DNA of 64,000 nt, from assembly GCF_022808775.1 (NCBI RefSeq), contig NZ_JAKZLA010000003.1, positions 496,001 to 560,000 on the forward strand. The letters run 5' to 3'. A program made the translations under genes and the position numbers. Below, one piece after another: positions 39,406-42,936 of this stretch. The notes below the pieces were generated by a model that did not search any database, was not told the origin of the DNA, and was given only the letters and a program-made list of their open reading frames with translations. Origin of the DNA: Geothrix terrae (GTDB taxonomy: Bacteria; Acidobacteriota; Holophagae; Holophagales; Holophagaceae). Every line of letters starts with the position of its first letter. The first letter of the stretch is position 1.

Positions 39406-39420
39406 CGCCGCCGCGCCTCA

Positions 39421-39591
39421 GGCCCTCCGCGCCGGGTGACCGGCACGACAGCCGCCGGGCTTTCGCCTCGACGTCCAGGGGCCGCGCCGATGACTCGCGA
39501 ACCCTTCGGCGATCCTCCCCTTTCCCACCGGGTCATCGGGTTCATCGCCCTCGCCACTGGTACTGATGGGGACCGCTCCTCCATCGGAACC
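39421..39591 (-). promoter_or_regulatory. Lysine riboswitch (L-box) aptamer
   Basis: About 171 nt in the leader of the lysine operon. On the minus strand the conserved L-box blocks occur in order: GGAGGAGCGG (P2 start), CATCAGTACC, GGGAAAGGGGAGGATCGCCG followed by AAG, and GGCGGCTGTCGTGCC. P1 can form from GGTTC and GGGCC at the ends, the hairpin GGCGAAAGCC lies in the P4 position, and GCCGG-TCAC-CCGGC forms P5. The length fits the family (about 170-180 nt). Lysine binding should lower expression of the dapE-lysA operon. Confidence 0.88.
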
Positions 39592-40199: not shown

Positions 40200-40805
40200 T
40201 CAAGCCCTCCTTGGAGCCCGCGCGGGCACCAGGGCGTCCGCCAGCTGGCGCACATAGCCGCTGAGGTCCGTCACTTCCTTCACGGCCTTGGGGGTAGCCC
40301 GCAGGAGCTGGAAGTAGCCCGCATAGGCCGCATAGGCCAGCAGGGCCCGCTGGCGCGCCTCGGTTTCCGTCAGGCCCAGCGCCAGGAAGGCCTCCGCGCC
40401 GAAGGCCAGGCGGCGCTCCGTGGCGCGGCGGAGGAAGGGCGCCACCCGGGGGTCTTCCCCGGAGAGCGCCAGGGCCGCGAAGAAGAGGCCGTTCTCCACG
40501 TCCTCGAAGGCCGCGAAGAGCAGCACCCGCAGGCGCCGCCGCGGGTCGGCGATGCCCCCGTAGCGGGCCACCACGTCCGCGCTCTGGTCCTGCTCCCAGT
40601 CCGCCAGGGCCGCCTTGATGAGGGCGTCCCGGCTGTCGAAGTGCCAGTAGAAGCTTCCCTTCGTGACCCCCAGCGCCTGGGCCAGCGGCTCCACCGCCAC
40701 GGCCGACACCCCCTCCCGGATGATGAGGGCCTGGGCCGCCTTCACCCAGACCTCGGGGGACAGCGGCTCAGTGGGGCGGCGGGGCTTCTTGCGGGGAGCG
40801 GGCAT
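40200..40805 (-). CDS. TetR family transcriptional regulator
   Basis: 201 aa from the ATG at 40805; the frame is open far upstream, into the divergent gene, so that start was rejected. The N-terminal helix-turn-helix (about 18-65) includes EGVSAVAVEPLAQALGV and TKGSFYWHFDSRDAL, the typical TetR recognition helix. The C-terminal ligand domain is helical. It is divergent from the rhombotarget/rhombosortase operon with two palindromes between the starts, so it probably represses that operon and itself. Ligand unknown. Confidence 0.87.
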   Translation of the reverse strand: MPAPRKKPRRPTEPLSPEVWVKAAQALIIREGVSAVAVEPLAQALGVTKGSFYWHFDSRDALIKAALADWEQDQSADVVARYGGIADPRRRLRVLLFAAFEDVENGLFFAALALSGEDPRVAPFLRRATERRLAFGAEAFLALGLTETEARQRALLAYAAYAGYFQLLRATPKAVKEVTDLSGYVRQLADALVPARAPRRA

Positions 40806-40841
40806 GGCGGCCTTGACAGGTGACCGGGCCAGCATACCATA

Positions 40842-40873
40842 CCATACCGTATGGCATCCATACGCATGCGTAT
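40842..40873. promoter_or_regulatory. Two adjacent palindromes, candidate TetR operators
   Basis: Perfect inverted repeat CCATAC-C-GTATGG at 40842-40854 and perfect 14-bp palindrome ATACGCATGCGTAT at 40860-40873. They lie between the divergent TetR and rhombotarget starts, 37 and 25 bp from them, and share the half-site GTAT. Preceded by two more CATAC units (40833-40845). Confidence 0.65.
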
Positions 40874-40898: not shown

Positions 40899-41759
40899 AT
40901 GCCCCGCCACCCCTTCCTCACTGCCGCCCTGGCGCTCCTGACCTTCCTCGGCTGCAACACGCCGGAGACGCACGTCCGCCGCAGCAGCCTCATGGACTAC
41001 CTCTATCCGAAGGAGAAGGCCGCCCCCATGCCGAACCCCGCCGGGGCCCGCCTCAAGCTGCCCCTGAAGCTGGGCGTGGCCTTCGTCCCGGGCGGCACGG
41101 CCTCCTGGCGGGTCCAGAACCTCATGGCTCCGGGCCAGGAGAAGCAGCTTCTGGACGTGGTGAAGCAGAGCTTCAAGGACCGGCCCTGGATCTCGGAGAT
41201 CAAGCTCGTCCCCAGCGCCTACCTCCGTCCGGGTGGCGGCTTCGAGAACATGGACCAGGTGGCCCGGATGTATGGCGTGGACGTCATGGCCCTGGTGAGC
41301 GTGGACCAGGTGCAGAACACGGATCCCCGCTGGTACAGCTTCACCTACCTCTCCATCGTGGGCGCCTACGTGCTGCCCGGTGACGCCAACGACACGAACA
41401 CCCTCATCGACGCGGCCGTCTACGACGTGGCCAGCCATACCTTCCTGCTGCGCGCCCCCGGCCAGAGCCAGGTCAAGGGCAGCTCCACCTGGGCCTACCG
41501 CGAGAAGCAGCTGCGCGAGCACTCGGCGAAGGGCCTGGAGCTGGCCATGACGGATCTGGCCAAGAACCTCGACGCCGAAGTGGGCGCCTTCAAGGCGGAG
41601 GTGGCCCGGGGTGAGCGCAAGGACGTGGACGTGGTGGACCGCCAGGGCGTGTCCCTGCGCCAGAGCGGTGGCCGGAACTTCGGCGGAAGCACCGGCTGGA
41701 TCGAGGTCCTGGGCGCCCTCCTCGTCCTCGGTCTCGCCCTGCGGTTCCGGCGGGCCTGA
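40899..41759 (+). CDS. Rhombotarget lipoprotein with GlyGly-CTERM tail
   Basis: 286 aa from the ATG with AAGGAG upstream; a longer frame would cover the operator region. Lipobox FLGC with Cys19. The C-terminus is a sorting signal: a Gly-rich SGGRNFGGS, a hydrophobic helix (about 262-280), and a basic RFRRA end. This is the GlyGly-CTERM layout recognised by rhombosortase, whose gene follows with a shared TGATG. The body (DVVKQSFKDRPWISEIKLV and SYLSIVGAYVLPG) matches the family of single-copy lipoproteins paired with a rhombosortase. Exported, then cleaved and likely transferred to the cell surface. Confidence 0.82.
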   Translation: MPRHPFLTAALALLTFLGCNTPETHVRRSSLMDYLYPKEKAAPMPNPAGARLKLPLKLGVAFVPGGTASWRVQNLMAPGQEKQLLDVVKQSFKDRPWISEIKLVPSAYLRPGGGFENMDQVARMYGVDVMALVSVDQVQNTDPRWYSFTYLSIVGAYVLPGDANDTNTLIDAAVYDVASHTFLLRAPGQSQVKGSSTWAYREKQLREHSAKGLELAMTDLAKNLDAEVGAFKAEVARGERKDVDVVDRQGVSLRQSGGRNFGGSTGWIEVLGALLVLGLALRFRRA

Positions 41760-42241
41760 TGGATCCCCTCGCCCTCACCGCCGAGGCCCTCCGGGAGCCC
41801 TGGCGCCTCTGGACGGGGCACCTGGTCCACTTCGGCTGGGAGCATGCCCTGGCCAATGCCGTGGCCCTGGCCGTACCGTGGATCCTGGCCCCACCCGAGG
41901 ATCGGCGGCGGCTGGCCCTGGCGATGCTCGTCCTTCCGCCCCTCCTGAGCCTGCTCCTCCTGCCCTCCCTCGGCGGCGGCGATTACCGCGGCGCCTCGGG
42001 CCTGGCCTGCGCACTTTGGGGCTTGGTGGGCCTGCGCCTGACCGGGCGGCAAGGATCCACACCCCTCGGTCTGTTGATGCTTGGGGGGCTCATGCTGAAA
42101 CTGGGGACCGAGGCGGCCTTCGGCGGCTGCTTCCTGCTCCACCCTGAAGGCTGGCGCACCCTACCTGGCGCCCACCTGTGGGGGACGCTGCTGGGCCTCG
42201 CTTCCGCCCTGCCGCCCTGGCCCCGCCCTCATCCCGCCTGA
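41759..42241 (+). CDS. Rhombosortase (rhomboid-type intramembrane protease)
   Basis: 160 aa, the short rhombosortase type with about five or six helices. The first conserved block is WRLWTGHLVHFGWEHALAN (18-36), the nucleophile segment is YRGASGLACAL near 77-87 (Ser in G-A-S-G), and a late HLWGTLLGL supplies the His. It cleaves GlyGly-CTERM proteins at the inner membrane. The only visible substrate is encoded directly upstream and overlaps by one base. Confidence 0.85.
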   Translation: MDPLALTAEALREPWRLWTGHLVHFGWEHALANAVALAVPWILAPPEDRRRLALAMLVLPPLLSLLLLPSLGGGDYRGASGLACALWGLVGLRLTGRQGSTPLGLLMLGGLMLKLGTEAAFGGCFLLHPEGWRTLPGAHLWGTLLGLASALPPWPRPHPA

Positions 42242-42264: not shown

Positions 42265-42936
42265 ATGAGAAGGCTGATCTGCGCCCTTCTTTCGATCATC
42301 GGGGGCCTGGGGTGCGCTCGGATCTACCGGCCCGTGACCCTCGCCACGCCACCCGCCAGTATTCGCGGTGAAGGGCTTGCGGGGCAGGTGGCGTTGCAGC
42401 CCTGGGGCGACAACTCGAGGTACGAGCGGAAGGCCCTTCAGGCGAACCTGCGCGTCTTCGTGCTGACTCTCGAGAACACCTCTTCGGTCGACCTTGAGAT
42501 TCTGCGCCTGGACCTCCCGGAGGGAGCCACGGCCCTTCTGCCAGCGGCCGCCACAAGCCTCGTGAAACAGCGAAGCCTCGCCTACATCCTCTATCCACTG
42601 CTCCCGGGCCTGGCCAGTCTGGGGGCCGCGGAAAAGCCCCCCAGCGGTTCTGTGGGCCCTTCGGATCAAGCGATCCTCCAGGGCCTCGTCATCGTCGGCG
42701 CCTGCATCGGGATTCCCAACGCCCTCATCGCCGCCCGGAGCAACCGGCATCTGGAGGCGTTCTTCCGAGACCAGGCCTGGTCCCCGGGGCTGCTGAGGGC
42801 CGGCCAGACCCGGCGGGGACTGGTGTTCCTGCGGGCCCCAGATCTCTATGCACCCCTGCCCCTGCTGATCATCTACCGGGGCAGCGCGGGGGAACGGAAT
42901 TTGGCCCTGATCGGTCCGGGCGCGCGGCCCCTCTAG
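42265..42936 (+). CDS. Putative lipoprotein of unknown function
   Basis: 223 aa. Lipobox GGLGC with Cys at 17. A predicted beta-rich domain (about 30-85) is followed by a hydrophobic segment near 100-112 and another near 138-155, then a strand pattern ending ALIGPG. No family recognised. It is 23 bp downstream of the rhombosortase with a GAGG site, so it may be part of that operon. Confidence 0.5.
   Translation: MRRLICALLSIIGGLGCARIYRPVTLATPPASIRGEGLAGQVALQPWGDNSRYERKALQANLRVFVLTLENTSSVDLEILRLDLPEGATALLPAAATSLVKQRSLAYILYPLLPGLASLGAAEKPPSGSVGPSDQAILQGLVIVGACIGIPNALIAARSNRHLEAFFRDQAWSPGLLRAGQTRRGLVFLRAPDLYAPLPLLIIYRGSAGERNLALIGPGARPL

Follow-up and report, generated by a model that had tools for sequence, protein, structure and literature searches.

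Rhomboid enzymology takes six transmembrane helices as the core of the enzyme. Rhombosortases (TIGR03902), such as RssP of Vibrio cholerae and SO_2504 of Shewanella, can serve up to thirteen substrates, and adjacent pairs of one GlyGly-CTERM target and one rhombosortase were published in 2011 (PMC3237569, Table 3). The accessible part of that paper places a histidine four residues after the catalytic serine (Ser+4) in virtually all rhombosortases. For VesB, which is cut by RssP, the available text of PMC6219818 gives an expected cut after the second glycine and a glycerophosphoethanolamine adduct. A GlyGly-CTERM tail together with RssP suffices for membrane association, and crossing of the outer membrane needs a further signal (PMC13393428, available portion). 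Similar tripartite tails are handled by a different enzyme class, myxosortase (PMC11980579, available portion). Mycobacterial Rv1337-type rhomboids have five predicted helices, of which the third and fifth carry the catalytic residues, and conserved TM2 residues that fall outside the predicted helices (PMC2989971, available portion). On the substrate side, NCBIfam TIGR04179 is named "rhombotarget lipoprotein"; judging from its name and profile, a lipobox combined with a C-terminal helix that has a basic end would define this family.

The window analyzed here, a stretch of 64,000 nucleotides from Geothrix terrae, holds a pairing of this kind. The pair is a new example of the published arrangement, and its protease is a new structural variant. 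The features of the locus, in window coordinates, are as follows.

40200 to 40805, minus strand: TetR-type regulator transcribed divergently from the pair, with an approximate start codon (PF00440 TetR_N, 46.3 bits, cut-off 24)
40837 to 40854, no strand: inverted repeat CCATACCATACCGTATGG, CCATAC-N6-GTATGG, candidate TetR operator
40860 to 40873, no strand: second palindrome ATACGCATGCGTAT
40899 to 41759, plus strand: rhombotarget lipoprotein, 286 aa, signal peptide at about residues 1-18 (TIGR04179)
41676 to 41756, plus strand: C-terminal sorting-type tail, NFGG-helix-RFRRA, helix at residues 267-285 in the structure model
41757 to 41761, plus strand: TGATG, lipoprotein stop overlapping enzyme start
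41759 to 42241, plus strand: intramembrane serine protease of rhombosortase-like type, lacking TM1, 160 aa (TIGR03902, PF01694)
42265 to 42936, plus strand: third gene, for a small protein that resembles a lipoprotein and belongs to no known family, placed by synteny

The lipoprotein frame runs from ATG 40899 to TGA 41757-41759 and the enzyme frame from ATG 41759 to TGA 42239-42241, the common base being the A of TGATG. The first-pass annotation had described a lipoprotein followed, with one base shared, by a rhombosortase; this arrangement holds, and the overlap is kept in all 14 Geothrix pairs checked. One target and one enzyme in neighboring genes is also what the accessible part of PMC3237569 describes for the published pairs. 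That part describes no loss of TM1, and a term search of the text returned neither "lipoprotein" nor "lipobox" nor "Acidobacter-".

In Geothrix, the locus order is a serine hydrolase gene (minus strand), the TetR gene (minus strand), the lipoprotein/enzyme block, and thiG. The make-up of the block varies between loci, its possible members being a tail-less lipoprotein, the tailed lipoprotein with the enzyme, and the third gene. In some Geothrix loci, part of which are truncated at contig edges, the search turned up no hydrolase, no third gene, or no thiG. The third gene, for which Pfam and NCBIfam gave no match, is a frequent neighbor, including at loci without the tail and the enzyme.

The lipoprotein scores 239.4 bits against TIGR04179 (cut-off 150), and the match runs from position 3 to position 255 of the 259-position profile, which takes in the tail region. 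All 11 tailed relatives in one alignment match this family, and the own assembly (3.43 Mb, 97.7% complete) holds one match. Cys19 (codon 40953-40955), which we take by the lipobox rule to be the lipobox cysteine, is invariant in two alignments of 31 rows each. The protein thus has both a lipobox and a C-terminal helix with a basic end, as the first-pass annotation had stated; its view of this two-ended topology as unusual has to be dropped, as it is the normal design of TIGR04179. We found no difference between this lipoprotein and the family, and the gene beside it is of the rhombosortase type. What sets Geothrix apart from the family description is the tail-less paralog, which stands in tandem with the tailed form in some genomes and replaces it in others.

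The lipoprotein is under purifying selection (dN/dS 0.13-0.23, 8 comparisons), and so is the enzyme (0.22-0.35, 9 comparisons); therefore, neither gene is a chance open reading frame. The structure model of the lipoprotein (pLDDT 77) resembles PelC, CsgG, FlgT, HpaA, and LptE-type folds (Foldseek E 6e-6 and weaker), the best fold matches reaching a Z of about 8 over 127-160 residues, a value that the tool calls common. Because these folds mostly belong to outer-membrane or periplasmic lipoproteins, the modeled likeness is a hint to location, not to function. Sequence comparison with solved structures gave weak, mixed matches only, at E 0.23 or worse. A tblastn search of plasmids gave no match to the lipoprotein or the enzyme, and of 29 relatives located on contigs of named genomes, 27 lie in Geothrix, Holophagaceae, or Acidobacteria records.

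The tail has a tripartite form at the extreme C-terminus, a motif, a helix, and a basic end (NFGG-STGWIEVLGALLVLGLAL-RFRRA). NFGG is invariant in all 14 tails aligned. The GlyGly codons lie at 41682-41687, and by analogy with VesB, the cut is predicted after residue 263. The tail is under looser constraint than the body of the protein (tail dN 0.07-0.27 vs dS 0.09-0.46). The first-pass annotation had proposed a single adjacent substrate and had named many other targets in the genome as evidence to the contrary. A profile of the tail type, which could miss tails of another type, was run against the whole assembly and gave one full match, this gene, at 60.6 bits; the only other hit was a partial one over 12 positions (E 0.6). 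The single-substrate claim is upheld accordingly.

Its naming of the tail as GlyGly-CTERM is borne out in part. The tripartite architecture agrees with it; the GlyGly-CTERM model TIGR03501 gave no match at the tail, which is formally an outcome that the annotation had listed as counting against the name. In this genome, the only TIGR03501 match at E up to 10 was a 10-bit stretch elsewhere; none exceeded the cut-off in five Geothrix genomes searched, and the model was not reported for 11 tailed proteins scanned. The tail of a relative from another family, in genome G287 (G numbers denote genomes), passes the model at 15.9 bits (cut-off 15.5). Since this tail passes and the tailed lipoproteins form one family, we read the failure as divergence.

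The tail-less paralogs allow a length comparison. It took in 15 of the 23 family tail-less proteins, those in the alignment used, and 13 of them end 21 residues past an invariant Asp, the others 20 and 18. The same distance of 21 residues separates this Asp from the second Gly of the motif in all 14 tailed proteins of Geothrix and in those of G143 and G160, provided that a motif reading GGG is counted by its first GG (the three such cases otherwise give 22); in G287, there is no GG at this position. Judged from the aligned sequences, cleavage behind the second Gly would bring the protein back to the length of the tail-less form, an agreement that is suggestive only. The 15 tail-less paralogs of the family fall into a single clade (100/99) of a lipoprotein tree, and the remaining tail-less protein is a distant one from Rubrivivax (L089); long branches meet in this tree, and no branch separates the outgroup from the rest. 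Two family members have an odd shape. The tailed lipoprotein at L011 1495-2343 (minus strand, G009) has a signal peptide and first residues that resemble the tail-less paralog, as if tandem copies had recombined. The same-family tail-less lipoprotein L112 (G364) is apparently shortened internally and ends shortly after an RRKD motif.

Rhombosortases and the enzyme share the rhomboid fold from L1 onward, the L1 WR..T motif, the GASG catalytic serine, the TM6 AH..G...G motif, and the same side of the tree. The catalytic residues are Ser80 (41996-41998) and His139 (42173-42175). In all 14 Geothrix enzymes, the catalytic Ser (GxSG), the catalytic His (AHxxGxxxG), the TM2 residues H29 and N33, and GxxxG are invariant. 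A 39-row tree places the enzyme on the rhombosortase side, split from nine ordinary rhomboids at 98/96. The own assembly contains one TIGR03902 match and one PF01694 match, so the enzyme is the only rhomboid found in its genome; other rhombosortases serve up to thirteen substrates, and this one has a single likely substrate. In another TM1-less enzyme, L123 (G287), GASA stands in place of GASG at the catalytic serine.

The call of a rhombosortase by the first-pass annotation is carried by the catalytic residues and the side of the tree, and it is weakened by three departures. The enzyme reaches 81.1 bits against TIGR03902, short of the cut-off of 84, and it passes Pfam Rhomboid PF01694 (25.2 bits, cut-off 22.6). 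Among its Geothrix relatives, G010 (85.3) and G308 (84.4) reach the TIGR03902 cut-off, and G023 and G007 do so only together with their frame neighbors. Ser+4 is Cys, not His, in all 14 Geothrix enzymes, and G412 and G136 are the only members of the rhombosortase side of our sample with His at this position. Finally, the enzyme lacks the first transmembrane helix: the gene starts at the overlapping ATG, and six helices are not present. Because the cut-off, the histidine, and the six helices were each sought and not found, we stop short of classing the enzyme as a full rhombosortase; it sits on the rhombosortase side of the tree and most likely works like one. The first-pass annotation had missed that the protease lacks TM1 and the rhombosortase His at Ser+4.

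The absence of TM1 is seen in hydrophobicity. In the stretch before the L1 motif, the best 19-residue hydrophobic mean is 0.31-1.05 in the 14 Geothrix enzymes and 0.33-0.89 in those of G143, G160, and G287; it is 1.61-2.32 in 16 other enzymes, two of which are ordinary rhomboids. A full six-helix rhombosortase whose TM1 was merely missed, through a wrong start, a frameshift, or a separate small gene, would explain why no stop codon interrupts the frame for 21 to 531 codons before the enzyme ATG and why the N-terminus of the AlphaFold2 model has low confidence. We consider this very unlikely, as the upstream in-frame stretches hold no hydrophobic helix in any of the 14 Geothrix loci, nor in G143, G160, and G287, and a hidden TM1 in frame was rejected. 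The N-terminus is also conserved from the ATG itself, with M1, D2, L6, A10, and L11 invariant in a 14-row alignment and dN (0-0.10) well below dS (0.21-0.64) over the first 30 codons in 9 comparisons, and in all 14 Geothrix pairs, the enzyme start is fixed by its overlap with the lipoprotein stop.

Structural comparison agrees with the loss of a single helix. The enzyme model (pLDDT 73, under 50 at residues 1-6 and 124-129) aligns over 140 residues, 3-156, to GlpG 127-272 with a VIA-align Z of 11.2, and the notes of the tool caution that helical bundles can commonly give a Z below about 13. We trust the match because ranks 1-25 are all GlpG and iRhom chains and Z falls to 6.6 in the next row. 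With Foldseek alone, matches to the enzyme did not get below E 1.6, GlpG standing at E 2.2, and a sequence profile reaches GlpG from enzyme residue 13 on (E 0.009). TM1 of GlpG, which we take to span about residues 94-114, precedes the aligned region. Over the 14 enzymes, the mean charge is -1.9 net at the N-terminus and +2.1, +1.4, and +2.1 in the inner loops, the outer loops being near-neutral; these charges fit an N-terminus on the outside. Like Rv1337-type rhomboids, the enzyme has five predicted helices and bears its catalytic residues in the third and fifth (PMC2989971, available portion). Unlike them, it keeps TM2 with H29 and N33 and lacks TM1, as judged from the fold alignment and the gene start. 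In the literature searched, which most subscription papers lay beyond, no TM1-less rhomboid was found.

In the 39-row tree, the 17 TM1-less enzymes form one clade (99/94), and their sister group is the TM1-bearing enzymes of G083, G155, and G351 (98/90 jointly), which adjoin the same lipoprotein family. The tree thus indicates one loss of TM1, in a lineage already paired with this substrate. An enzyme without TM1 and with an altered Ser+4 might be a pseudoprotease or escort that holds the lipoprotein by its tail helix and does not cut, in the manner of iRhom; the accessible part of PMC12615303 describes a non-proteolytic iRhom2 whose client contact is made via TM1. This reading is improbable, since pseudoproteases usually lose the catalytic Ser and His, the TM2 His and Asn, and GxxxG, all of which are invariant here, and since Ser+4 also varies in other Acidobacteriota enzymes on the rhombosortase side. 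The enzyme is probably an active, natural, and conserved rhomboid without TM1.

The presence of the tail and that of the enzyme coincide across genomes. In a first sample of 60 relatives, 37 of them in the genus, 11 genomes carry the tailed lipoprotein, and these are exactly the genus genomes with a TIGR03902 match of at least 78 bits; none of the 12 genomes with tail-less lipoproteins only has a TIGR03902 match at E 1e-3. A second, overlapping sample of 396 genomes from the phylum contributes a further 12 genomes with the tailed form, each of which matches TIGR03902 at 60 bits or higher, and three tail-less-only genomes (G192, G356, and G364), which are outside the 169 genomes with a match at E 1e-9. 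Overall, the enzyme is present in 23/23 tailed-lipoprotein genomes and in 0/15 tail-less-only genomes, counts that are not independent events, the genomes being related. Genomes with neither lipoprotein form were left out, as was G171, where the lipoprotein runs off its contig and the enzyme is on another. The lowest enzyme scores, 64.6 (G143) and 60.9 (G160), lie beside that of an ordinary rhomboid in G188 (60.8), and these two enzymes are set apart from ordinary rhomboids only by adjacency and the tree.

Of the 23 genomes, 21 have the two genes side by side, and G296 and G359 have them on different contigs, as might be seen if the tail and the enzyme were unrelated neighbors, the helix keeping the lipoprotein anchored and the protease acting on other proteins. 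Such independence is highly improbable given the co-distribution, the invariant NFGG, and the gene overlap. It is also opposed by synteny, in which the tailed lipoprotein and the enzyme are gained or missing as one unit at this one chromosomal place in Geothrix.

We are fairly confident in the explanation as a whole, namely a dedicated, translationally coupled substrate-protease pair in which the enzyme trims the tail of the adjacent lipoprotein. The signal peptide would export the lipoprotein, with lipidation at Cys19, and the C-terminal helix would give it a second anchor, in the inner membrane, leaving RFRRA on the cytoplasmic side. The enzyme, a derived rhombosortase with TM1 lost and its N-terminus presumably outside, would use Ser80 and His139 to cut at NFGG, most likely after the second Gly, and so remove the helix. 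As has been proposed for VesB, it may then hand the freed C-terminus to an ethanolamine lipid. Once mature, the lipoprotein, with its predicted CsgG/PelC/LptE-like periplasmic fold, would move on, probably to the outer membrane. Since a lipoprotein needs no tail for membrane association, the tail more likely serves to time or place maturation or to add a second lipid. One possible onward route is the type II secretion system, which exports lipoproteins in a GspN-dependent manner (PMC12802150, available portion). Divergent GspD-like secretin matches occur in 46/47 genus genomes, with and without the enzyme, and one of the 47 exceeds the cut-off; this distribution counts neither for nor against such export.

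A more specific version is conceivable and rather unlikely: in a five-helix rhombosortase with the N-terminus outside, specialization on one substrate would have removed the need for TM1, the substrate helix or a partner would fill the vacant TM1 face, and the Gly C-terminus would go to a lipid, so that the product carries a lipid at each end. To a specialist, the pairing would be familiar and the missing helix unexpected. A natural, conserved, probably active TM1-less rhomboid with one likely substrate encoded beside it would offer a compact way to study the role of TM1 and to learn whether rhombosortases hydrolyze or transfer. Paralogs with and without the tail serve as natural controls, and a clean comparative test comes from the way in which tail and enzyme are jointly present or jointly absent across a single genus.

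The pair may be under TetR control. The TetR gene adjoins it in Geothrix loci and is nearby in G160 and G287. The exact CCATAC-N6-GTATGG repeat occurs in 22 of the 30 upstream regions extracted (21 of 27 from Geothrix, plus G287), positioned in Geothrix upstream of the first lipoprotein gene; it was not found upstream in G143 and G160. In G287, which belongs to another family, a TetR gene stands beside the pair and the repeat before it. In the window, conserved inverted repeats lie within 40837-40873, between the TetR gene and the lipoprotein operon. Farther upstream, a lysine riboswitch lies at 39412-39591 on the minus strand (Rfam RF00168, 64.3 bits), ahead of minus-strand genes that resemble, by eye, lysine-pathway genes.
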